NCBI GenBank assembly: GCA_007679095.1
Contig: VEFU01000008.1
Location: 1-64,000 of the forward strand
DNA length: 64,000 bases
From: Paenibacillus bovis
Lineage (GTDB): Bacteria > Bacillota > Bacilli > Bacillales > Bacillaceae_C
Direction: 5' to 3'
Part shown: in pieces, positions 11,304 to 62,013 of the stretch
Position numbering within the stretch: position 1 is the stretch's first letter
How the letters are laid out: each line of letters starts with the position of its first letter
Notes under the pieces: model-generated
Database searches by the model: none
Told to the model about the DNA's origin: nothing
Seen by the model: the letters and a program-made list of their open reading frames with translations, nothing else
Translations under genes and position numbers: made by a program

Positions 11304-12371
11304 ATGTCAAAATATACTAGGATCGCTATTACTACAGCAGCTGTACTTGCAACGAGTGTGTTTTTATCAGGCTGTGGTTTATTCGGTAAAGATAAAGAGG
11401 CTTTGGATCCACCGCCAAAACAAAATGTATCACATTTGGATGAAAATGAAGACCTCGATTCTTTAACAGATACGGAAACATCTGGAGAAGAACAAGTAGA
11501 AGCAGTCATGACAGATCTTTACTTAATTGATAAGAATGGACTAGTAGTAGGTCAATCATTACCGTTACCAAAAACAAATAGTGTTGCAAAGCAGGCTTTG
11601 GAGTATTTAGTGGCTGATGGAAAGATATCTGATATTTTACCTAATGGTTTCCGTACTGTATTACCTGCAGGTACAAATGTTGATGTTGATATTCAAGATG
11701 GTAAAGCAATTGTCGACTTTTCGGAGGAATTTAAAAACTACCAAGCAAGTGATGAACAAAAAATTCTCCAAGCTGTAACATGGACGTTAACTCAATTTGA
11801 TACAGTTAATTCTGTTGAATTAAGGGTGAATGGATACCCTCTAACGGAAATGCCTGTTGGAGGAACGCCAATTAGCGAGGATGGATTAACACGTGCAGAT
11901 GGTATCAATACAGGATTTGCTGATGTAGTGGATGTAACGAATACGCGTCCACTTACGGTCTACTATTTAGCACAAGGCCTTGATAATTATTACTATGTAC
12001 CAGTTACAACTCGTGTATCAAACTTAGAAGAAGATAATATCAAAGCTGTAATTGACCAATTAGTTGAAGGTCCTACGTTAGAAGCTTCATTAATGACTGT
12101 ATTAGATGGTGATGCATTATTGTTAGACGACCCGACGATTAAGGACGGAGTTGTTACACTTAACTTTAATGAGGAAATTCTCGGAAACAGTGAGACAAAA
12201 GAGATTTCTACTGAAACATTACAATCACTCGTCCTTTCTTTAACGGAACAGCCTGGAATTGAAAGTGTCGCTGTCATGGTTAATGGAGATGGAGGACTTG
12301 TGAACGAAGATGGGGAAGAACTAACAGAACCAGTTACCCGTCCTGAAAAAGTGAACACAGGTAGTTTTTAA
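11304..12371 (+). CDS. gerM: Spore germination/sporulation lipoprotein GerM
   Basis: The 355-residue protein has a lipobox LSGC (Cys24), an acidic linker and two GerMN domains (about 65-185 and 205-345), each with a pattern such as VDFSEEFKNY or LNFNEEIL. GerM acts at the mother-cell/forespore interface during engulfment and in germination. AGGAGGGG precedes the ATG. Position between racE and rph matches B. subtilis. A possible sigma-E promoter precedes it and a terminator follows. Confidence 0.9.
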   Translation: MSKYTRIAITTAAVLATSVFLSGCGLFGKDKEALDPPPKQNVSHLDENEDLDSLTDTETSGEEQVEAVMTDLYLIDKNGLVVGQSLPLPKTNSVAKQALEYLVADGKISDILPNGFRTVLPAGTNVDVDIQDGKAIVDFSEEFKNYQASDEQKILQAVTWTLTQFDTVNSVELRVNGYPLTEMPVGGTPISEDGLTRADGINTGFADVVDVTNTRPLTVYYLAQGLDNYYYVPVTTRVSNLEEDNIKAVIDQLVEGPTLEASLMTVLDGDALLLDDPTIKDGVVTLNFNEEILGNSETKEISTETLQSLVLSLTEQPGIESVAVMVNGDGGLVNEDGEELTEPVTRPEKVNTGSF

Positions 12372-49412: not shown

Positions 49413-50432
49413 ATGGAAGATGGAAAGGAGAAGCAAACATCACAAATTAAAATTAAATTGAATGGAGTTGAAAAGCCATTTTCCGAAGAAACCCGGATAC
49501 ATGATTGGCGAACAACTGTAAGAGACGAGACAGCAGCAACTTCAGAAGATACTGCAGATGAAGAAGAATTTGAGTGGATATTGCCGGAAATCGAAACGAA
49601 AGAAATACCAGAGTATAAAATTGTTAATGCTACGGTCCCATCTCCAAGAAACAATATAGGAAAAAAATGGAGACGGCAAATGTATCCTGATATTTCGAAG
49701 CTAGTATTTTCAATTATACTCGCTATTGTAGTCGGACTTATATTAGGTACTTTATTTTTAAAAATGATGGCATCTGAAGATGATATTGTGGCGATAAATG
49801 AAGTTGAAAATCCAGGGTCTGTAAATAAGGATGATGAAAAAAAAGGTGGAACTACGGCTGGTCCAGTTGAAATAACGATTCCAGCTTTAACCATTGGAGT
49901 TCTTCAAGGTGGACAATTTTCGACGAAAGAAGCTGCCGATGCAGCTGCTAATTCTTTTCGCAAAGAAGATTTAGCTACAACGATCATAGAAATGGACGGG
50001 AAACATTATGTATTTATTGGTGTAGCAGGTGATTTGGCTACAGCAAAATCTTGGGAGAGCCAATTAAAGGATAATGGTATAGAAGTATGGGCTAAAGAGT
50101 TAACCATTCCGGCGAAGGATATTACGTTTGCTTCTCAAACAAAAGGAGAGCAATTTGTTACAGAAGCAAGTACTTTTAAAAAGCTAGCAAATGAATCTGT
50201 TACTGCGACTATTTCAGGGAAGACTAATGCTGCCAACATGAAAGAAATAAGTGGCAGTATTGAAATGAAAGAGGATATATTCGAAAGTGAAGTTGCTAAT
50301 AGTATCCATTCAAAACTAGTATATGCACTGCAGGGATTAACTGAATTTTCAAGTTCTGATTCACAAAAAAATCTAATTAATGCCCAACAAGGATTATTAG
50401 ATTATATGAATTTATTTTATAAGGGTGAGTGA
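49413..50432 (+). CDS. spoIIB: SpoIIB-like sporulation septum protein with SPOR domain
   Basis: The 339-residue protein has a cytoplasmic acidic N terminus, one membrane segment (about 94-115, LVFSIILAIVVGLILGTLFL) and an extracellular SPOR-type domain (about 152-230, LTIGVLQGGQFSTKEAADAAANSF). SpoIIB binds septal peptidoglycan and helps septal thinning during engulfment. The place before maf-radC-mreB is that of spoIIB in B. subtilis. GGGAGGT precedes the ATG. Confidence 0.85.
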   Translation: MEDGKEKQTSQIKIKLNGVEKPFSEETRIHDWRTTVRDETAATSEDTADEEEFEWILPEIETKEIPEYKIVNATVPSPRNNIGKKWRRQMYPDISKLVFSIILAIVVGLILGTLFLKMMASEDDIVAINEVENPGSVNKDDEKKGGTTAGPVEITIPALTIGVLQGGQFSTKEAADAAANSFRKEDLATTIIEMDGKHYVFIGVAGDLATAKSWESQLKDNGIEVWAKELTIPAKDITFASQTKGEQFVTEASTFKKLANESVTATISGKTNAANMKEISGSIEMKEDIFESEVANSIHSKLVYALQGLTEFSSSDSQKNLINAQQGLLDYMNLFYKGE

Positions 50433-50466
50433 CTAGCTACGTCTAGTCCCACCCTATTTACTATTT
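50423..50466 (+). terminator. Terminator after spoIIB
   Basis: GGGTG-GACTAG pairs with CTAGTC-CACCC around CTACGT, then TATTTACTATTTTTG. The stem overlaps the spoIIB stop codon. Confidence 0.7.
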
Positions 50467-50534
50467 TTGTCTACTTTGGTAGTATAATGGTATGTATCTC
50501 CAATATCATCATGTCGAAAGGATGGCTATCAAAT

Positions 50535-51098
50535 ATGCCTCAGCTAATTCTAGCTTCGAATTCCCCACGTAGGAGAGAGTTACTTCAAAAGTTAAATATT
50601 CCATTTAAAGCGCTTTCACCAAATGTTGATGAATCGATTTCTACTTATGTATCACCAGAGGATATTGTGATGACTCTAGCATTGCGAAAAGCAAATATAG
50701 TAAAGGACTTAGAAGAAAATGCAGTTGTAGTTGGTTGTGACACAGTTGTAGTTTATAATGATCAAATACTTGGAAAACCGAAAGATGAAAGTGAAGCTCG
50801 CGACATGTTAAAACAGCTGTCAGGTCGAACACATTCTGTTTATACAGGGGTAGCAGTCATTCATGATGCAAAACATGAATTGTTTTTTGAAAAAACAGAT
50901 GTGGAGTTCTGGCTATTATCAGATGAAGAAATAGAGCAATATATCGAAAGTGGAGAATCTTTTGATAAAGCTGGTGCCTACGGAATTCAAGGATTAGGAG
51001 CATTATTAGTTAAATCTATTAGAGGGGATTATTACTCTGTTGTTGGCCTACCTATTGCCCGCTTGTCCCGCGTCTTAAGAGAGAAATTTAACTTATAA
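50535..51098 (+). CDS. maf: Maf, nucleotide pyrophosphatase / septum formation inhibitor
   Basis: The 187-residue protein starts MPQLILASNSPRRRELL, the Maf signature, with VGCDTVVVYNDQILGKP and FDKAGAYGIQG later. Maf proteins hydrolyse dTTP, UTP or modified nucleotides and slow septum formation when overproduced. I chose ATG 50535, with AAAGG upstream; an extension to 50487 would be unusual for the family. Confidence 0.95.
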   Translation: MPQLILASNSPRRRELLQKLNIPFKALSPNVDESISTYVSPEDIVMTLALRKANIVKDLEENAVVVGCDTVVVYNDQILGKPKDESEARDMLKQLSGRTHSVYTGVAVIHDAKHELFFEKTDVEFWLLSDEEIEQYIESGESFDKAGAYGIQGLGALLVKSIRGDYYSVVGLPIARLSRVLREKFNL

Positions 51099-51120
51099 TA
51101 TTATAGGAGGAGAAGGAAGG

Positions 51121-51672
51121 TTGAATAATAAATCTTCACTCATGATTCGAGATTTTCCAATCGATGAACGTCCAAGAGAACGATTAATTCAAAAAGGGCC
51201 AGAAAGTTTGTCGAATCAAGAATTACTCGCAATTATATTAAGAACAGGGACGAAATCAGAATCTGTTATTCAATTAGCCAATCGTCTTTTAACTCAATTT
51301 GACGGCCTACATTGGCTAAAAGATGCAGCTTTAGAAGAAATAATGGAAATTAAGGGAATTGGAACAGCAAAAGCAGTGCAAATTGCGGCTGCTGTGGAAT
51401 TAGGAAGAAGAATAAGTAACATAACGTTTAACGATCGTTATGTAATTCGAAGTCCGGAAGATGGTGCGAATTATGTGATGAATGATATGCGTTTTTTAAA
51501 GCAGGAACATTTTGTATGCGCTTACTTAAATACAAAAAACCAAGTAATTCACCGTCAAACTATCTTTATTGGTAGTTTAAATGCCTCCATCGTACATCCT
51601 CGTGAGATTTTCAAAGAAGCATTTCGACGTTCAGCAGCGTCTATCATTTGTTTCCATAATCACCCATCCGGC
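51121..51672 (+). CDS. radC: radC, 5' exon (interrupted by a group II intron)
   Basis: The exon encodes residues 1-184 of a RadC-type JAB/MPN protein: helix-hairpin-helix (about 60-75, MEIKGIGTAKAVQIAAAVELG), then the JAMM zinc region up to HNHPSG (His179, His181). It stops exactly before the metal ligand Asp192. The rest is in the 3' exon 54207-54347. Joined, the exons give 230 residues, the length of B. subtilis RadC, without frame change. The start is TTG after AGGAGGAGAAGG. Without splicing, translation adds six residues and stops at 51693. RadC's biochemical role is not settled. Confidence 0.92.
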
Positions 51673-52243
51673 GTGCGCCTGCAAGGTGCGTAATTTTAGC
51701 GATTTCTATAGAAATCTAGAACTCCTTACATTGTTCTATGGTCAGCATCTTACCATGAGGGGAAACCCATAGAGGGAACAGAGCATGATGTAAAAAGGAG
51801 AAAAGACAGGCAAGCTATCTACGCCTGAGTCAGTTCTTCAGACCAAGTGATGTATGGTAAAAGCTATACTGCTTGAATCCTAGACGAATGAGCGATGGGT
51901 GCGCCGTTGTCTACGATAGCTAACAGGCAATGAGGACAAAATGGGAGACATATCCTCGGAGTGTCTGCTGGGTATCGCCTGAGCCCTGTCCATAGTAAGG
52001 TTTGTCCTTCAATCCTCAACTAGAGGAAACCGTCGAAAGGGATACCTAACCATCACGTATCTAAAATTATGTCATAATGCAGGGATTACCTAAGTGCAAG
52101 TGCCTCAGGCTATTAGACAAAGGTCTATGAAAATTGCATATGGTAACGGAGTCTCCATAGTACCCAACGTTTGCTTGTAATGAGTTTAGCAGGGGGAAGG
52201 GAGACAGGTTGATGTTAACGTTAACTAGAAAGGAGTCATGAAT

Positions 52244-54127
52244 ATGGCAACCAATCCATTTCGACAGTTAGACGTTATAAGGAAAGCTTCTCAAAAAGGA
52301 AATATCATTACGGATTGTTACCGTCTTATGTATAACAAAGAGTTGTGGATTAAAGCATACGCTAAACTATATCTGAATGCAGGGAATCTAACAAAGGGAT
52401 CATCTAATGAAACAATAGATGGTTTCAGTTTACAAAAAATAGACGACATCATAGAGCAATTAAGAGCTGGAACATTCCGTTTTGCAACCGTAAGAAGGGC
52501 TTATATTCCTAAGTCAAATGGTAAAAAGAGACCGCTTGGAGTTCCTAATTTCAAAGATAAGATAGTACAGGAAGTTATGAGAATGATATTAGAGAATGTT
52601 TATGAGCCAAGATTCTCTGAAAACTCACATGGTTTTAGAGAAGGAAGAAGCTGTCATACGGCACTTTCTCAAATTAAAAACACATGGAAAGGACTCACAT
52701 GGTGCATTGAAGGAGATATTAAAAGCTTCTTTGATCATATTGACCATACTGTACTATTAAAACTTATCTCGAAGAAAATAAATGACCGTCGTTTCCTGCT
52801 ATTAATTCATAATGCACTAACGAGTGGTGTAATGGAAAATTGGAAATACCATAAAACCTACAGTGGTACACCACAAGGAGGAATCATTTCTCCTATCTTA
52901 GCAAATATCTATCTTCATGAGTTTGACCTCTTTATGGAAAAACAAATGAAAGCATTTGATAAAGGTCAGGTTAGAGCTAGAAATAAGGATTATATCAAGA
53001 TTCGGTCAAAGATCAGCACCCTATCACGGAAGATTAAAAGACTTGATGAAAGAAATGGACATAGTGATTGGCAAGGTAGGAAGGAGCTAGTCCTCAATAT
53101 TCAGGAACTTAAAGTAAAACAAATACAAGTTACTTCTATTGACCCTATGGATAAAAATTATCAAAGAATGAAATATGTCCGCTATGCCGATGATTTTGTG
53201 ATTGGAATTGCTGGCTCGAGACAGAGTGCCATGAAAATGAAGGAAACGATTAAATGTTTTCTTAAAAAGGAACTTCAGCTTGAACTAAGTGACGAAAAGA
53301 CACTTGTTACCCATCTAGAAAATCCTATTCCCTTTCTTGGGTATCAATTTCACAGATGGAACGAGGTTAAGGTTAAACGAGTCACATATAAAAACCAAAA
53401 ACATCCATTGAAAAAAAGAACTCTATCAGGTGCGATTAAGTTAGAAATTCCAGAAAAGAAAATAAAAGAATGTACAATAAAAAATGGATATGGAAATTTA
53501 GACGACTTTAAAATTACACATAGGGCGAAGTTAATTAACAATTCGGAACTAGAAATCCTACACACCTACAATGCCGAGTTGCGAGGAATTGCAAACTACT
53601 ATAAGTTAGCTAATAATTATCATCATTTGGATAGGCTCTTTTACTTGGCTGAAAGTAGTTTCATAAAAACAATCGCTAATAAACGAAGAAGCACCTCTAT
53701 GAAAGTAGCCACCAGTATGAGAACTCATAAACAAGGGGTACTATGCTTGGTTAGGAAAGATACTAAAGGTAATGAAAAACTTCATCAATTCGTGAAACTA
53801 AAAGATTTACCGAAGCACAAAGGTGCAATAAAAATAGACTCCCCTAATACAGATGTATTAGTTAATACATTGAAATATTCTGGGAGAACTGAATTAGAAA
53901 AACGATTATTAGCAAATAAATGTGAAGCGTGTGGTACAACAGAAGGTCAAATGGAAGTTCATCATGTCCGTAAATTAAAAGACTTGAAGAACAAAAAACA
54001 CCTAACATATTTGGACAAGAAAATGATTGAACGGAATAGAAAAACACTCGTTCTTTGTTACAGGTGCCATCATGACCACCATGAGAAGCAAATTCCGATT
54101 AATCAACTGGCGAGCCGTATACGCTGA
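52244..54127 (+). CDS. ltrA: Group II intron reverse transcriptase/maturase/endonuclease (LtrA-like)
   Basis: The 627-residue protein has RT domains 0-7 ([52 protein letters not shown]), the active site YADD, a maturase domain X (about 400-510, [18 protein letters not shown]) and an HNH endonuclease domain at the end ([31 protein letters not shown]). It promotes splicing and retrohoming. ATG 52244 is 8 nt after AGGAG; ATG 52238 is only 2 nt from it. The organisation and motifs closely resemble lactococcal LtrA. The stop overlaps domain V. Confidence 0.95.
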
Positions 54128-54145
54128 AAGGTGTACGTACGGTTC
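54112..54145 (+). ncRNA. Group II intron domain V of the radC intron
   Basis: GAGCCGTATACGCTGAAAGG and its partner GTGTACGTACGGTTC form the canonical 34-nt domain V: GAGCCGT pairs with ACGGTTC, a 2-nt bulge, then a stem closed by a GAAA tetraloop. It holds the catalytic AGC triad. Domain VI follows up to 54206. Confidence 0.92.
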
Positions 54146-54206
54146 TGAGGGGGGAGCTGTGAAACCTACTTTGGAAACAAAGCAAGGCGCATGGTTCCTA
54201 CCCTAC

Positions 54207-54347
54207 GACCCCGAGCCTTCAAGAGAAGATATAGAAGTAACAAAAAGATTAGTGGAATGTGGAAAAATAGTTGGGATAGAAGTGCTTGATCATTTAATTA
54301 TTGGTGATAAAAAATATATAAGTCTTAAGGAAAAAGGTTATTGCTGA
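54207..54347 (+). CDS. radC: radC, 3' exon
   Basis: This exon encodes 46 residues beginning [20 protein letters not shown] and ends at TGA 54347. It supplies Ser189 and Asp192, completing HxHx7SxxD of the JAMM motif. No ribosome binding site or start codon precedes it, so it is expressed only after intron splicing. Confidence 0.92.
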
Positions 54348-54524
54348 TACTATGATTTTAAAAAAGATTAGGATATAATTATATTTATGAATTTTTACTG
54401 AAGTTGTATTCGGTAAATAGGGACAAGCTGATGATTTCTAATGACAGTATTAGTTAATAGTAAATAGAGGCCTTACATTATAATGTCCGGCTGTTGGCAT
54501 AAATGAGAGAGGGAGATACATACC

Positions 54525-55544
54525 ATGTTTGGATTTGGATCAAAGGACTTAGGTATTGATTTAGGTACAGCAAATACACTTGTTTTTGTGAAAGGGAAGG
54601 GAATTGTGTTACGTGAGCCTTCCGTAGTTGCTTTACAAACTGATACAAAAAAAATAGTTGCTGTTGGTAATGATGCGAAAAATATGATTGGACGTACACC
54701 AGGTAATATTGTAGCATTGCGACCAATGAAAGATGGTGTAATCGCTGATTACGAGACAACTGCATCTATGATGAAATACTATATTAAGCATGCTCTAAAA
54801 GGTAAAGGGCTTGGAGGGAAGCCTTATGTCATGGTGTGTGTACCATCAGGCATAACAGCAGTGGAACAAAGGGCGGTGCTTGATGCAACACGTGAAGCGG
54901 GTGCACGTGAGGCATTTCCAATTGAAGAACCATTTGCAGCAGCGATTGGAGCAAACCTACCTGTATGGGAACCTACAGGAAGTATGGTTGTCGATATTGG
55001 TGGTGGTACAACAGAAGTTGCTGTTATATCATTAGGTGGAATTGTAACGAGTATGTCTATTCGTACTGCAGGTGATAATATGGACGAATCTATTATTGCC
55101 TACATTAGAAAAACGTATAATCTATTAATTGGAGATCGTACTGCAGAGTCGATTAAAATGGAAATTGGTTCTGCTAGTGATACAGAGGGTATTGGCCCAA
55201 TGGAAATTCGTGGACGTGATTTATTAACAGGCCTACCAAAAACAATCGAAATCACTGCAGCAGAGATTTCTGGTGCACTACATGACACCGTGTATGCCAT
55301 TATCGATGCAGTGAAAAACACATTAGAAAGAACGCCACCTGAATTATCAGCTGATATTATGGATCGTGGGATTGTGTTAACAGGAGGCGGTGCTCTGCTT
55401 CACAATATGGATAAAGTATTAAGCCAAGAAACGGATATGCCAGTCTTAATTGCAGACGAGCCACTAGATTGTGTTGCTATTGGAACTGGTAAAGCACTTG
55501 ACCATATTCATCTATTTAAAAATAAAGTTAAAGATTCTCGATAA
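54525..55544 (+). CDS. mreB: Rod shape-determining protein MreB
   Basis: The bacterial actin homologue directs lateral wall synthesis. The 339-residue protein has the actin phosphate loops [10 protein letters not shown] (about 10-19) and [12 protein letters not shown] (about 155-166), plus the adenosine motif LTGGGALL (about 285). It follows radC as in B. subtilis. GAGAGGGAG precedes the ATG. The 177 bp before it hold a TATAAT (54374-54379) but no clear -35. A terminator follows, so mreC and mreD may have another promoter. Confidence 0.97.
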
Positions 55545-55586
55545 AGTCATGCGCCGGTATCATACTGGCGCTTGCACTTTTTAAAA
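55544..55586 (+). terminator. Terminator after mreB
   Basis: GCGCC and GGCGC (with GTA/TAC inside) form the stem, flanked by AAGT/ACTTTTT. It lies between mreB and mreC and may be partly read through. Confidence 0.6.
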
Positions 55587-55727
55587 TTTTATGTTTAGCT
55601 TTGCGTCTTTTCGCTAGTCCATTCGTACCTCTTTTTAATTTCAAATTTATGGAGGAAAAGTAGACGAAGTGACCCTACTTCTATTAGCATACTAGGCGCT
55701 TATGCTGTTCTATTTGGGGTGATTTTG

Positions 55728-56579
55728 ATGCCGAATTTTTTTCTCAACAAACGTTTAATTATACTGCTTATCAGCATCATCATACTCGTTTCATTAATTG
55801 GCTTTTCTTTAAGAGATAAAGAAAATATTTCAAAGCCAGAACAATTCGTGAAAGATGTTGTTGGTTTTGGTCAATATCTAATTATGAAACCAGCACAGGG
55901 GATTGCCGGTTTTTTTGAGAATATAGAAGATATAAAAAATACATATACGGAAAATAAAAAACTAAAATCAAGATTGGAAGGTCTAGCCAAGCTTGAAAAA
56001 GAAATAGCAGATTTAAAGTTAGACAATGAAGAACTAAGAGAAATATTAAATAAAACGGATAATATTCGTGACTATGAACCTATTCAAGCAACCGTTATTA
56101 ATCGTTCTCCTGATCGTTGGTATGATAGACTAATTATTAATAAGGGGCAAAAAAGCGGTGTCCAAAATGATATGGCTGTTATTACTGCAAAAGGGTTAAT
56201 AGGTAAAGTAGTAAGTACGTCTGAAATGACTGCAACGGTTGAACTGTTGTCTTCTACGAACACAAGAAATAAGGTATCCGCTCAAATACAAGGAGAAACC
56301 CCTGTTTATGGGTTTATAAATGGCTATGACCAAGTAAATAACTTGTTGTTAATGAAAGATATCCCAATTGATCAAGAAATAGAGGTTGGTCAAAATGTAA
56401 TTACATCGGGATATGGTGGGGTATTCCCAAAATTATTGGATATCGGAAAGATTAAAGAAATTGAGTTGGACCGTTATGGATTGACGCAGACTGCATATGT
56501 AGAACCAGCAGCGGATTTTTATGGTTTTGAACATGTTATCGTTGTGAAAACGGAAAATGTTAAAATGGAGGAGGAATAA
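55728..56579 (+). CDS. mreC: Rod shape-determining protein MreC
   Basis: The 283-residue bitopic protein has a membrane segment (about 8-27), a coiled coil (about 68-112, NKKLKSRLEGLAKLEKEIADLKLDNEELREIL) and the extracellular beta domains of MreC (NRSPDRWYDRLIINKGQKSGV). It links MreB filaments to wall synthases. ATG 55728 follows GGGGTGAT; earlier GTG/TTG codons are less well placed. Confidence 0.95.
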   Translation: MPNFFLNKRLIILLISIIILVSLIGFSLRDKENISKPEQFVKDVVGFGQYLIMKPAQGIAGFFENIEDIKNTYTENKKLKSRLEGLAKLEKEIADLKLDNEELREILNKTDNIRDYEPIQATVINRSPDRWYDRLIINKGQKSGVQNDMAVITAKGLIGKVVSTSEMTATVELLSSTNTRNKVSAQIQGETPVYGFINGYDQVNNLLLMKDIPIDQEIEVGQNVITSGYGGVFPKLLDIGKIKEIELDRYGLTQTAYVEPAADFYGFEHVIVVKTENVKMEEE

Positions 56580-56581
56580 TA

Positions 56582-57103
56582 ATGATGAAAAAATTATTTC
56601 TTCCTCTCCTTTTAGCATTTTGTTTTTATAGTGGTAGTGTTTTTGTGTATTTCCTTCCACCAGGATCTTTTGGTATCGATAAAGTGTTAACACCACATTT
56701 TTTACTTGTTATGTTAATTTTAATGGGGATTTTTTATTTTCGAAATCGCTCGTTAATCTATGCAGCTATTTTTGGGTTAATATTTGATATATATTTCACC
56801 GAGATCATTGGAATTTACTTCACATTGTTTCCAATAGCTGTTTATTTGTCTGCCAAAACATCAAAGTTTTTACAAGCAAATATATTAACAACCCTTGTAA
56901 TAAGTACTATTTGTTTGACGTTAGTTGAAATTATCGTCTACATATTTAACGTTCTCATTATGCAAATAAATCTGCAACCAGAAGATTACGTATTAGTGCG
57001 ATTATGGCCTACACTCGTGTTAAATCTAATCTTCTTATTAATCATTTACTATCCTTTCTCACGGATGCTTCAAAAAAGTGTAAAAGAAGAACTAAATGAA
57101 TAA
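56582..57103 (+). CDS. mreD: Rod shape-determining protein MreD
   Basis: A 173-residue integral membrane protein with about five membrane segments and the MreD-type string FGLIFDIYFTEIIGIYFTLFP (about 64-85). It works with MreC. GGAGGAGG lies 7 nt before the ATG, and it starts 2 bp after mreC. Confidence 0.93.
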   Translation: MMKKLFLPLLLAFCFYSGSVFVYFLPPGSFGIDKVLTPHFLLVMLILMGIFYFRNRSLIYAAIFGLIFDIYFTEIIGIYFTLFPIAVYLSAKTSKFLQANILTTLVISTICLTLVEIIVYIFNVLIMQINLQPEDYVLVRLWPTLVLNLIFLLIIYYPFSRMLQKSVKEELNE

Positions 57104-57209
57104 AAATAAAGCGATTTTAAAGGAAAATACACTCACTTTGTCGAATTGAGCTAAAGATGACGTATCCATAAATATTAGTTAAAATAGATAGTAATTGATG
57201 TAGTTGTTG

Positions 57210-57276
57210 AAAGGAGACATAAGGGCAAAAAATTAGGAGAGATATAATCTATTAATCTCCACTTTGCCCGGATCAC
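57210..57276 (+). promoter_or_regulatory. minC leader with a hairpin between Shine-Dalgarno and start
   Basis: AAAGGAG is at 57210-57216, far (60 nt) before the ATG at 57277. Between them GGGCAAA (57223-57229) pairs with TTTGCCC (57263-57269), with GGAGA/TCTCC inside. If this hairpin forms, the distance from Shine-Dalgarno to ATG shrinks to about 13 nt. No other Shine-Dalgarno is close to the ATG, and no T-run follows, so it is not a terminator. Confidence 0.5.
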
Positions 57277-57966
57277 ATGAAAAACAGACAAAATGTAATG
57301 ATTAAAGGGACGAAAAGTGGTCTTTCACTGCAATTAAATGATCACTGCTCCTATGATGAATTACGGAAAGAGTTATCAGATAAACTAGCTGATTTGCATG
57401 GAGTAGATATGGATAGTCCGGTAATTTCTGTGCGAATATTGGCAGGTAATAGACATTTGACGGAAACGCAGCAAGAAGAATTGAAAAAGTTGATAATGCA
57501 AAAGAAAAATTTGCATGTAGAGGAAATTGAAAGTAACGTTATATTAAAAGAGGAAGCAGAGCGTTTAATTACAGAACAGGAAGTTACGTCTGTTGCTACA
57601 ATTGTCAGATCGGGACAAGTTTTAGAAGTACCAGGTGATTTGTTACTTGTTGGTGATGTAAATCCAGGAGGTACCGTAAAGGCTGGTGGAAATATCTTTA
57701 TCATGGGTGCTCTAAAAGGTATAGCCCATGCTGGTGTTACGGGTAGGAGTGAAGCCGTCATTGTTGCTTCTTTTATGACTCCATCGCAATTACGGATTTC
57801 TGACTGTATTAGTCGAGCACCAGACTCGTATAATCAGGAAGAACATCACCAAATGGAATGTGCTTACATAGACAATAAGCAACAAATTGTTATTGATCGA
57901 TTACAAGTTTTAAAACATATTAGACCAAATATTAATAGATTAAAAGGGGGACAAATCTATGGGTGA
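57277..57966 (+). CDS. minC: Septum site-determining protein MinC
   Basis: MinC blocks FtsZ assembly away from midcell. The 229-residue protein has an N-terminal MinC_N-like domain (about 1-105) and the right-handed beta-helix domain (about 115-220, VRSGQVLEVPGDLLLVGDVNPGGTVKAGGNIFIMGALKG). The ATG fits the family N terminus (MIKGTKSGLSL) but has no close ribosome binding site. It overlaps minD by 8 bp. Confidence 0.95.
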   Translation: MKNRQNVMIKGTKSGLSLQLNDHCSYDELRKELSDKLADLHGVDMDSPVISVRILAGNRHLTETQQEELKKLIMQKKNLHVEEIESNVILKEEAERLITEQEVTSVATIVRSGQVLEVPGDLLLVGDVNPGGTVKAGGNIFIMGALKGIAHAGVTGRSEAVIVASFMTPSQLRISDCISRAPDSYNQEEHHQMECAYIDNKQQIVIDRLQVLKHIRPNINRLKGGQIYG

Positions 57967-58765
57967 GGCGATTGTAATAACATCAGGTAAAGGTGGAGTC
58001 GGAAAGACAACTACATCCGCTAACCTTGGAACAGCACTTGCCCTTCAAGGGAAAAAGGTATGTCTGATTGATACAGATATCGGTCTTCGAAATCTTGATG
58101 TTGTCCTAGGTTTAGAGAATAGAATCATATATGATCTTGTAGATGTTGTCGAAGGACGTTGCAAACCACATCAAGCATTAGTAAAAGATAAGCGATTTGA
58201 TGATAAATTATTCTTGCTCCCAGCTGCACAAACGAGCGATAAAACAGCAGTTTCTCCACCACAAATGAAGCAGCTTGTTGATGAAATGAAACAAGACTAT
58301 GATTATATATTAATTGATTGTCCGGCAGGTATTGAACAAGGATACAAAAATGCTGTTGCAGGTGCTGATAAGGCAATTGTAGTTACAACACCAGAAATTT
58401 CTGCCGTTAGAGATGCAGATCGTATAATTGGATTGCTTGAAAAAGAAGAAGGTGTCGAACCACCGAAATTGATTATTAATCGCATACGTCCACAAATGAT
58501 GAAAGATGGAGATGTATTAGATATTGACGAAATTGCTCAACATCTATCCATCGATTTAATCGGAATCGTACAAGACGATGTAGAGGTAATTAAATCATCG
58601 AATCAAGGTGAACCAATTGCGTTAAATCCTAATAGTACTGCTTCAATTGCATATCGTAATATTGCAAGACGAATTCTAGGTGAATCAGTACCACTCCAAG
58701 CATTAGAAGACACCAACAATGGTCTCTTTGCAAAACTAAAAAAACTATTCAGTGCGAAAGCCTAA
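57959..58765 (+). CDS. minD: Septum site-determining ATPase MinD
   Basis: The 268-residue ATPase has the deviant Walker A GKGGVGKTT (10-18), DTDIGLRNLDVV and IDCPAGIEQGY, and a C-terminal amphipathic membrane-targeting helix (GLFAKLKKLFSAKA). It recruits MinC to the membrane; in Bacilli DivIVA positions it. GGGGG precedes the ATG within the end of minC. Confidence 0.97.
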   Translation: MGEAIVITSGKGGVGKTTTSANLGTALALQGKKVCLIDTDIGLRNLDVVLGLENRIIYDLVDVVEGRCKPHQALVKDKRFDDKLFLLPAAQTSDKTAVSPPQMKQLVDEMKQDYDYILIDCPAGIEQGYKNAVAGADKAIVVTTPEISAVRDADRIIGLLEKEEGVEPPKLIINRIRPQMMKDGDVLDIDEIAQHLSIDLIGIVQDDVEVIKSSNQGEPIALNPNSTASIAYRNIARRILGESVPLQALEDTNNGLFAKLKKLFSAKA

Positions 58766-58792
58766 CGGATTAACTTCCAGGAAAGTTTTTAT

Positions 58793-58841
58793 GGACGATA
58801 GACAAACTTGATAAAGTAGAGTTTGTCTATCGTCTTTTTTT
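58793..58841 (+). terminator. Strong terminator after minD
   Basis: GACGATAGACAAACT pairs with AGTTTGTCTATCGTC (15 bp) and is followed by seven T. Confidence 0.93.
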
Positions 58842-59023
58842 GAGTGTTTTTTAGGTACATAAAAACAATTCGAAAAACGAGCACTGACAGTCTAATATGT
58901 GCCACGTTCTGTGTAAATACCTGCACGAGTACTTCCCTGTATATCGCAGTCAAATAGTAACATTATTGAAGGGTGCTTCCAACAAGTCAATTTTTTGTGG
59001 CTTATTGGAGAGCACCTTTTTTT
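58842..59023 (+). other. Gene-free stretch with repeat remnant and a second terminator
   Basis: Around 58910-58955 there are weak matches to the right end of repeat copy B (ATATCGCAGTCAA). GGTGCTTCCAA at 58972 pairs with TTGGAGAGCACC at 59005-59016, followed by TTTTTTT, a good terminator. No gene is seen between the two terminators, so the second may end read-through or a small unrecognised transcript. Confidence 0.5.
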
Positions 59024-59047
59024 CTTTTAGGTTTGTCTCCTCAAAAA

Positions 59048-59076
59048 GAATAATTAAATCGGACGAGTCATAGGTT
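59048..59076 (+). promoter_or_regulatory. Possible sigma-E promoter of spoIVFA
   Basis: GAATAAT (59048-59054), 14 nt, then CATAGGTT (59069-59076) fits the sigma-E consensus KMATATT-N14-CATACANT at 6 of 7 and 6 of 8 positions. spoIVF is a sigma-E operon in B. subtilis. Confidence 0.5.
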
Positions 59077-59107
59077 AGTAGAAATAGTTAAAGGAGGATG
59101 GGGGAGT

Positions 59108-59875
59108 ATGAGCCGAAGGGCTGACGAGATTCGCCGACAAATTAGCAAACGCCGAAAAAATTATATGGAGAACCGTAGAAGGACGGTAAAACCTACTGTA
59201 AATCCATCACCTTTTAGCGAGGATGAAATAGAAACATCTGTGTATGAGTCTGACCCTAAAGATTCATTCCATCCACTTTGGAATCGTGATGTGTTCCTTA
59301 TGAAAATATTAATTTCAGCTATCCTTGTATTAGTAGTTGCTATCATATTTAAATCACCTTCTACGACGTTTGATAAAGTTAGAGCTAGTGTCCAGAAAAC
59401 AATGGAAACAGAATTCCAATTTGCTACTGTAGCTAATTGGTATGAGAGTCAATTTGGAAAACCACTTGCACTTTTACCTCCATTTGAAAAGGAAACAGAA
59501 AATCCCGATAAAATGCACGACTACTCACAACCAGTTTCAGGAAAAGTATTAGAGGATTTTTCAGGGGATGGAAGAGGAATTATTATTGAAACTGGACAAG
59601 ATGCGGATGTAAAAGCAATGAGTGGTGGTAATGTTATTTTTGCAGGAGTGAAAGAAGATATTGGTAAAACAGTTATTATTCAACATGCTGATCACAGTGA
59701 ATCATGGTATGGCAGACTAGATAGCATATCTGTAAAGACGCACCAAAATGTAAAAGAAGGTGAAATTGTTGGAAATGTAGCAGCAAGTGATGAAAATCAA
59801 AAAGGTGAGTTTTATTTTGCCATTAAGCAAAATGATACCTTTATTGATCCTATACAGGTGATGAAATTTGAATAA
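59108..59875 (+). CDS. spoIVFA: Stage IV sporulation protein SpoIVFA (M23-like, regulatory)
   Basis: The 255-residue protein has a basic N terminus, one membrane segment (about 63-80, ILISAILVLVVAIIF) and a C-terminal M23/LytM-like fold (about 140-250, SGGNVIFAGVKEDIGKTVIIQH) without the complete zinc ligands, as expected for SpoIVFA. It holds and inhibits the SpoIVFB protease until the SpoIVB signal. AAAGGAGG precedes the ATG. Confidence 0.92.
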   Translation: MSRRADEIRRQISKRRKNYMENRRRTVKPTVNPSPFSEDEIETSVYESDPKDSFHPLWNRDVFLMKILISAILVLVVAIIFKSPSTTFDKVRASVQKTMETEFQFATVANWYESQFGKPLALLPPFEKETENPDKMHDYSQPVSGKVLEDFSGDGRGIIIETGQDADVKAMSGGNVIFAGVKEDIGKTVIIQHADHSESWYGRLDSISVKTHQNVKEGEIVGNVAASDENQKGEFYFAIKQNDTFIDPIQVMKFE

Positions 59876-60731
59876 ATATATAGACCTTATAAAAAAGATT
59901 AACATTCACCCCCTCTTTTGGGCAGTCACAGGGTTAGCGATTATGACTGGGTATTTTTGGGAGCTACTAGCCCTGTTTTGCATTGTTTTCTTGCATGAAC
60001 TTGGACATGCTTTTATGGCTCATTACTATGATTGGAAAATAAAGCGCATATTAATATTGCCTTTTGGTGGTTATTGTGAAGTGGATGAACACGGGAATAG
60101 GAGTATGCAAGAAGAGCTAATGGTCATATTAGCTGGGCCATTTCAACATTTAATTATTGCGATTTTGTTGCCAATCTTAGTAATGGCTTCTGTTGTTACA
60201 GCAGATTATGCAAAAGTCATTTTACAATTTAATGTAATGATTTTAATCTTTAATCTTCTACCTATCTGGCCACTTGATGGAGGTAAATTAATTCAATTAT
60301 TTTTTGCAACTAGGAATACGTATTTAGAAGCGAATCGCCTCTCATTATTAGTATCCGCAGTTGTATTAGGTATGTTACATCTATTTATTTTCATATATTC
60401 ACCATGGAATATAAATGTTTGGTTAGTATTGATTTATTTGAGCGTATCCCTATGGACTGCATGGAAACAATTAAGATTCTCTTTTATGAGGTTTTTAATG
60501 GAGAGACATTATGGTAAACATGAATATGTGTCACAATTACAAACAATAAATGCAAAAGGCGATGAATATTTGCATGAAGTATTTACGAAATTTAAAAGAG
60601 GCTGTAAGCATTTAATATATGTTGCTGGACCAACTCATCAAGGGAAACTAGATGAAAATGAACTTCTGTATGCTTATTTTACAGAAAAAAGAGTAGATGC
60701 CCGCTTAAAGGATCTTGTTTACGATGATTAA
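59868..60731 (+). CDS. spoIVFB: Intramembrane metalloprotease SpoIVFB
   Basis: A site-2-protease family enzyme of 287 residues that cleaves pro-sigma-K in the mother cell. Zinc ligands are HELGH (43-47) and Asp137 (WPLDGG); there are about six membrane segments, then a CBS-like C-terminal domain (about 210-287). The start is TTG, overlapping the end of spoIVFA, with AGGTGATG upstream. Confidence 0.95.
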   Translation: MNKYIDLIKKINIHPLFWAVTGLAIMTGYFWELLALFCIVFLHELGHAFMAHYYDWKIKRILILPFGGYCEVDEHGNRSMQEELMVILAGPFQHLIIAILLPILVMASVVTADYAKVILQFNVMILIFNLLPIWPLDGGKLIQLFFATRNTYLEANRLSLLVSAVVLGMLHLFIFIYSPWNINVWLVLIYLSVSLWTAWKQLRFSFMRFLMERHYGKHEYVSQLQTINAKGDEYLHEVFTKFKRGCKHLIYVAGPTHQGKLDENELLYAYFTEKRVDARLKDLVYDD

Positions 60732-60737
60732 TAAATG

Positions 60738-60775
60738 GACGACAATGGATATGTTGACATCGTCGTCTTTTTTGT
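60738..60775 (+). terminator. Terminator after spoIVFB
   Basis: GACGACAATG pairs with CATCGTCGTC (one bulge), then TTTTTTG. Confidence 0.85.
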
Positions 60776-60823
60776 TTTTACATGCCCAGTCTAAGTTGCC
60801 TTTTGCTTTCCTATCGAAAGTCA

Positions 60824-60853
60824 TTGACATTCATGTTTAATATATGATAGTAT
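60824..60853 (+). promoter_or_regulatory. Sigma-A promoter of the rplU operon
   Basis: TTGACA at 60824-60829 is a perfect -35. The -10 is less clear; TAGTAT at 60848-60853 (18-nt spacer) is the best match. Confidence 0.55.
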
Positions 60854-60861
60854 TTTCTTGT

Positions 60862-60955
60862 TAGTCTGTAGCACCCGTGCTACAACCGCACATACCAGGT
60901 ACATAAGTTTTGATGAACATCAAACACCTGTCAATGGCGAGTCTGAGTCTATTAA
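60862..60955 (+). ncRNA. L21 (rplU) leader RNA
   Basis: GTAGCAC (60868) pairs with GTGCTAC (60877-60883). A second, longer arm has CAGGT/ACCTG with TTTGATG/CATCAAA inside. This matches the ribosomal protein L21 leader described in Bacillus, which probably binds L21 for feedback control. A covariance search would settle it. Confidence 0.75.
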
Positions 60956-60969
60956 GGAGGTGCAATAAT

Positions 60970-61278
60970 ATGTACGCAATCATTGAAACTGGTGGTAAAC
61001 AAATTCGTGTTGAAGAAGGCCAAACTATCTACGTTGAGAAATTAAATGCAGCTGAAGGTGAGTCATTCACTTTTGATAAAGTTCTTTTCGTTGGTGGGGA
61101 AGATGTGAAAGTTGGTAGCCCATTTGTTGAAGGTGCAACTGTCACAGCTAAAGTTGAAAAACAAGGTCGTCAAAAGAAGATTGTTGTTTACAAATACAAG
61201 CCAAAGAAAAACTACCACAAAAAACAAGGTCATCGTCAACCATACACTAAAGTTGTTGTTGAAAAAATCAACGCGTAA
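60970..61278 (+). CDS. rplU: 50S ribosomal protein L21
   Basis: L21 of 102 residues: [20 protein letters not shown] at the start and a basic end ([18 protein letters not shown]). AAGGAGGTG precedes ATG 60970. It is the first gene of rplU-prp-rpmA, with the L21 leader upstream. Confidence 0.98.
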
Positions 61279-61290
61279 GGCGGATTGACA

Positions 61291-61623
61291 ATGATTCAAA
61301 TTGAAATTAACAAACGTCCTGATGGAAAGATTACTTCATTCACGATGGATGGACATGCTAATTTTGCAGATAAAGGACAGGACATCGTTTGTGCAGGTGC
61401 ATCAGCTGTTGCCTTCGGTAGTGTTAATGCAATCATTGCATTAACAGGTATAGAACCGGAAATAGAACAAGCTGATAGTGGATTTTTAAAATGTACATTC
61501 CCGCATAAACTATCCGATGAAGTGTCTAAACAGCTTCAGCTACTGCTAGATAGCATGGTTATATCACTACAAACAATCGAAAGAGATTATAGTGATTTTA
61601 TAAATATTTCCTTTAAAGAGTAG
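61291..61623 (+). CDS. prp: Ribosomal-processing cysteine protease Prp (YsxB)
   Basis: Prp removes the N-terminal extension of L27 before it enters the ribosome. The 110-residue protein has catalytic His22 (DGHANFA) and Cys34 (DIVCAGASA). ATG 61291 is 7 nt after AAGGCGG; TTG 61285 is too near. It lies between rplU and rpmA, its usual place in Firmicutes. Confidence 0.95.
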   Translation: MIQIEINKRPDGKITSFTMDGHANFADKGQDIVCAGASAVAFGSVNAIIALTGIEPEIEQADSGFLKCTFPHKLSDEVSKQLQLLLDSMVISLQTIERDYSDFINISFKE

Positions 61624-61920
<297 letters not shown>

Positions 61921-61942
61921 TTACCTCTTCCTGAGGATATAT

Positions 61943-61985
61943 GAAAGCTCTAGCCTGATAAGGTTAGAGCTTTTGTGTTTTTTAT
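61943..61985 (+). terminator. Terminator after rpmA
   Basis: AAAGCTCTAGCC pairs with GGTTAGAGCTTTT (one G-T pair), then a T-rich stretch. Confidence 0.88.
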
Positions 61986-62013
61986 AGGACTTATATAATG
62001 TAATGCCAATTTC

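Follow-up and report, generated by a model that had tools for sequence, protein, structure and literature searches.

How does a ribosome reach the start codon of minC when the only strong Shine-Dalgarno (SD) sequence lies 60 nt upstream of it? The question is posed by the window, the whole 64,000-nucleotide stretch of Paenibacillus bovis DNA analyzed here (contig VEFU01000008.1, positions 1 to 64,000), in which a preliminary description had noticed a hairpin filling the gap and had suggested that folding would bring the two signals to within about 13 nt of each other. To our knowledge, only a handful of genes have been described with a split ribosome binding site, and we found no prior report of one at minC in the open-licence literature. 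Here we examine the leader together with its counterparts from 16 Lederbergia and 6 Siminovitchia genomes (n = 22) and propose that it is probably a clade-specific ribosome binding site split in two and bridged by a hairpin.

Layout and Predicted Folding of the minC Leader

All elements of the leader lie on the plus strand. The distal SD, AAAGGAG (57210-57216; GAAAGGAG when counted from 57209), pairs with the 16S tail found in the genus, GGATCACCTCCTTTCT, at −12.7 kcal/mol, as compared to −3.3 kcal/mol for the best site in the final 20 nt before the ATG. It is followed by a 6-nt 5′ linker (ACATAA, 57217-57222; 5-6 nt across all 22 species) and by the 5′ arm of the bridging stem (GGGCAAA, 57223-57229), assigned from fold and conservation, whose GGGC core is invariant (22/22). 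The bridge insert (57230-57262), of varying length and sequence among species, includes a predicted apical helix (GGAGA at 57236-57240 with TCTCC at 57256-57260) and gives way to the 3′ arm (TTTGCCC, 57263-57269; GCCC in 21/22), assigned in the same way, and to a 7-nt 3′ linker (GGATCAC, 57270-57276) with an invariant leading G. The minC coding sequence (57277-57966, 229 aa) then begins with the ATG at 57277, so that SD and start codon stand 60 nt apart on the linear RNA and 6 + 7 = 13 nt apart with the 7-bp stem formed. The elements, gap, and folded spacing given in the preliminary description are thus correct base for base, as is its statement that AAAGGAG is the only strong SD. The N-terminus of the protein, MKNRQNVMIKG, aligns with MinC starts that have a canonical SD immediately before them, both in Neobacillus, Cytobacillus, Robertmurraya, and other genera and in five sister genera from the family itself, and this alignment indicates that the ATG at 57277 is the correct start. 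The closest relatives of the window’s MinC are those of Lederbergia.

Both the minimum free energy and the centroid structures of 57200-57300 include the bridging and apical helices. Their total stability is ordinary (−16.6 kcal/mol, z = −1.38; 18 of 200 shuffles are equally stable or more so), and energy alone would not have singled out this hairpin. Its geometry is rarer. A stem was counted as bridging if it had 5 or more bp, four or more of them G-C, with its base 2-8 nt past the SD and 4-10 nt before the ATG. Among 5000 dinucleotide shuffles of the window’s spacer, 5 produced such a stem and 2 produced one of 7 bp. When both the SD and the start codon are constrained to be single-stranded, the probability of a path of at most 17 nt between them is 1.00, and none of 100 mononucleotide shuffles reaches as high a value. 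The model further predicts a bridge probability of 1.00 between 15 and 55 °C, with the SD open at 0.64-0.81 throughout; the earlier suggestion of a start that responds to temperature or to a factor accordingly finds no support in the window’s species, where the predicted behavior is not that of an RNA thermometer.

The leader was also examined for known elements and for transcription signals. An Rfam search of 50000-62000 returned no match above the gathering score for the minC leader, the matches there being a group II intron and a ribosomal protein L21 leader. The former, with its reverse transcriptase ORF, occupies 52238-54206 immediately upstream of mreB (RF00029 at 54110-54206), and the latter (RF00559, 60874-60954) is an ordinary, known element. 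Neither a terminator or attenuator nor a T-run was found in the minC leader. Transcription starting inside the hairpin, which had been named beforehand as a threat to the bridging idea, is disfavored: the TATAAT at 57243-57248 has no −35 match in the promoter scan and is not shared by relatives, and a leader starting there would have no SD. Upstream lie a promoter-like element, AGGAAAAT-N11-GTCGAAT (57121-57146), which we take to be of the σH type and which is matched in most relatives and in all outgroup genera tested, and a possible σA promoter, ATGACG-17-TAAAAT (57157-57185), upstream of the SD, whose consensus match is not above the chance count in the window’s species, with similar ones in many Lederbergia. 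Either candidate would put both the SD and the hairpin on the transcript.

Conservation across Lederbergia and Siminovitchia

The 22 leaders have a common layout, GAAAGGAG-(5-6 nt)-GGGC-variable insert-GCCC-(7-8 nt)-ATG, which is complete in 21, with GAAAGGAG itself invariant in all 22. The 3′ linker measures 7 nt in 21 species and 8 nt in S. thermophila. While both linkers are thus constant, the linear SD-to-ATG distance ranges from 42 to 180 nt in 21 species (35 nt in the exception) and the insert from 22 to 166 nt, with the half-sites ~12 to 157 nt apart. Mean column conservation follows the same division: the SD scores 0.99 and the arms 0.99 and 0.95, whereas the flanks of the loop reach 0.45 and 0.48 and the sequence ahead of the SD 0.60; the A preceding GGGC and the G following GCCC are likewise invariant. 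Run on 16 leaders with no structure supplied, RNAalifold recovers only five pairs, those of GGGCA with UGCCC, four of them in 16/16. This comparison strongly supports the bridging role proposed for the hairpin, the free length of the insert and the fixed length outside it arguing that the stem serves spacing, which we consider our strongest argument. The expectation that pairing would be conserved in relatives holds insofar as the arms are kept in 21-22 of the 22 species; covariation is absent, the four core pairs never varying and compensatory changes in the core stem numbering zero, and such invariant pairs could in principle reflect sequence recognition instead of pairing.

Folding predictions largely extend to the relatives. 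With SD and start codon held open, the probability of a path of at most 17 nt is at least 0.64 in 19 of the 22 species; it is 0.33 in L. panacisoli, and the bridge is not favored in L. citrisecunda and in genome G014. The bridging-geometry test recovers 19 of the 22 minC leaders and none of 321 ORFs in 400 kb of L. citrisecunda, the latter being a rough control with a crude ORF set and lenient start choice. Of 34 family genomes, 17 contain the exact pattern, all of them Lederbergia or Siminovitchia. It marks minC only, save for two unrelated matches in the 34 genomes, and one match within the 17 is not at minC; ~380 other genomes of the order have ~4 scattered matches, which we attribute to chance. 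Five matches in viral contigs are unrelated. In its own right, viral contig L162 carries on the minus strand (11482-11522) AAAGGAGG, then a GC-rich hairpin with nine perfect base pairs, then the ATG of an open frame, which may be a bridged site or chance.

In L. citrea the stem is weakened to ~3 bp, with GCC in place of GCCC, and a new GGAG stands 9 nt from the ATG, as expected if the bridge became dispensable; this single case may represent a return to a conventional ribosome binding site. Bacillus sp. FJAT-50079 (L012, ~1327-1493) has a 166-nt insert with a large branched predicted fold and both linkers intact, and a mobile origin for this insert was rejected, as it is single copy in its genome.

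Outgroups and Origin of the Proposed Split Site

In every outgroup genus the minC SD is an ordinary GAGGTGA, pairing with the 16S tail at −11.5 kcal/mol. In Lederbergia and Siminovitchia, by comparison, the proximal site lies between +1.0 and −6.5 kcal/mol and the distal one between −11.9 and −12.9 kcal/mol, a difference that reads as loss of the proximal SD; in several Siminovitchia the 3′ arm retains a weak proximal site resembling AGGTG (−5.2 to −6.3 kcal/mol). The GAG-to-ATG spacing is 13-14 nt in the outgroups versus 12-14 nt around the stem in the clade. A tree of MinC and MinD places Lederbergia and Siminovitchia together on one side of a 100/99 branch, which fits a single origin of the split site. 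The σH-like element, in turn, is ~55 nt from the minC ATG in most outgroup genera as opposed to 115-280 nt in the two genera, whose leader apparently grew by insertion between promoter and gene; the element itself appears ancestral to that insertion.

Weighing Alternative Readings

The most serious alternative is that the leader is primarily an SD-sequestering switch, in which pairing of the 3′ arm UCUCCUUUGCCC with the SD would give the off state and closure of the bridge through its UUUGCCC the on state, the balance of the two setting minC translation. Eleven Lederbergia (L003, L005-L011, L013, L014, and L016) carry a TCTCCTT(T) complementary to the SD, TCTCCTT itself arising in 9-21 of 5000 shuffled spacers, and in their free RNA the sequestering fold is predicted to compete with the bridge and to be clearly preferred in ~8. 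In constrained ensembles the panacisoli and niameyensis leaders favor SD:anti-SD pairing by 2-8 kcal/mol; in NSJ-179, DE0224, galactosidilytica, and SD088 it comes within ~1 kcal/mol of the bridge. The anti-SD is, however, missing from Siminovitchia and from L. lenta, G014, FJAT-50079, and citrea, its presence in 11 species may reflect one inherited event, and no ligand or trigger for such a switch is known. In the window’s species TCTCC is also retained but engaged by the internal GGAGA, and the SD:anti-SD fold is predicted to be ~9 kcal/mol less favorable than the bridge. The GGAG that the preliminary description saw buried in the stem is real in the window; it is not kept in relatives, whereas its partner TCTCC is shared by 12 Lederbergia. 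Overall we regard a primarily sequestering role as unlikely. The two folds might also be combined in a bistable device, where one 3′ arm (UCUCCUUUGCCC in most Lederbergia) would either lock the SD or close the bridge after the SD has been taken up by the ribosome or some other factor, thereby tuning MinC, with the internal GGAGA fixing the window’s species in the bridged state; we offer this as a speculative extension and think it rather unlikely.

A different function for the repeat is less probable still. GGGCA/TGCCC could be an inverted repeat bound by a protein, an sRNA, or at the DNA level, placed between SD and ATG for repression and not for spacing, and the invariance of the arms and of the flanking A and G without compensatory changes would suit such recognition. 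On the other hand, half-sites whose separation varies that widely are ill suited to a DNA dyad, the pattern has no other gene-adjacent occurrence in family genomes, and the reading would deprive minC of a usable SD, so that we give it little credence. It is very unlikely that AAAGGAG instead serves a short leader peptide, with minC translated by coupling or without an SD. An ATG does lie 2 nt past the GGAG in 8 of the 22 species, and L. panacisoli and FJAT-49711 (L003 and L005) have a 15-codon frame whose TGA overlaps the minC ATG, but this arrangement is not conserved, leader frames where present range from 7 to 35 codons, a start codon 2 nt from the SD is too close for efficient initiation, and 14 of the 22 species, the window’s included, have no start codon 2-12 nt past the SD. 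The ordinary overall fold energy is what one would expect if the spacer were a relic and its hairpin fortuitous, with minC poorly translated from a weak proximal site; conservation in 22 species effectively refutes chance, and we find this reading barely credible.

Proposed Mechanism and Significance

In light of these comparisons, we return to the hairpin-bridged site as the preferred reading and infer that the folded stem exists in living cells, where ribosomes make use of it and MinC synthesis requires it. In this model the 16S tail would anchor the sole strong SD, GAAAGGAG, while the hairpin closed by GGGC/GCCC would take out the 22-166 nt in between, and the start codon would thereby come to lie 12-14 nt from the SD, at about the position of the ancestral GAGGTGA. 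The stem would sit folded on the 30S subunit and would not be melted. The arrangement would have arisen once, in the common ancestor of Lederbergia and Siminovitchia, together with an upstream insertion that would have pushed the former proximal SD out of place.

If true, this would be a chromosomal split site kept across 22 species of two genera at a core cell-division gene. Its natural inserts of 22-166 nt, together with the ordinary outgroup, would offer an evolutionary series for learning which hairpins ribosomes skip, and would caution that models of SD spacing and programs that predict start sites will misjudge genes of this type.

Comparison with Known Systems

Among described leaders, the E. 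coli thrS mRNA illustrates that a hairpin interrupting a split site can be accommodated unmelted by the 30S subunit (Sacerdot et al. 1998, as described in PMC3936740 and PMC3858243). It shares with minC an unpaired SD. Unlike in minC, where the hairpin stands between a strong SD and the ATG, the thrS SD is weak and, by those papers’ description of an SD plus a U-rich region upstream of the hairpin, lies downstream of the hairpin, while the single strand upstream docks via S1. The thrS hairpin is moreover described there as a tRNA-like operator bound by ThrRS, whereas the minC insert is unconserved, with no protein operator evident; a thrS-type autoregulated operator was rejected in view of loop flanks conserved at 0.45-0.48 and of the wide range of insert lengths. 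SD-sequestering leaders and RNA thermometers find their likeness in the 11 Lederbergia relatives, whose SD can pair with TCTCCTT(T).

The nearest counterparts are genes 25 and 38 of phage T4, in which a hairpin between SD and AUG shortens the spacing from 27 to 11 and from 22 to 5 nt, respectively, as proven by mutation and DMS probing according to a review (PMC3014915, covering Nivinskas 1999 and Malys and Nivinskas 2009). The T4 cases are likewise clade-restricted, to T-even phages as minC’s is to two genera. They differ in being phage genes with much shorter inserts and in having been shown experimentally, whereas the proposed minC site belongs to a chromosomal, Gram-positive cell-division gene, with inserts of 22-166 nt. 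In all features that sequence can test, the minC leader resembles the T4 cases.
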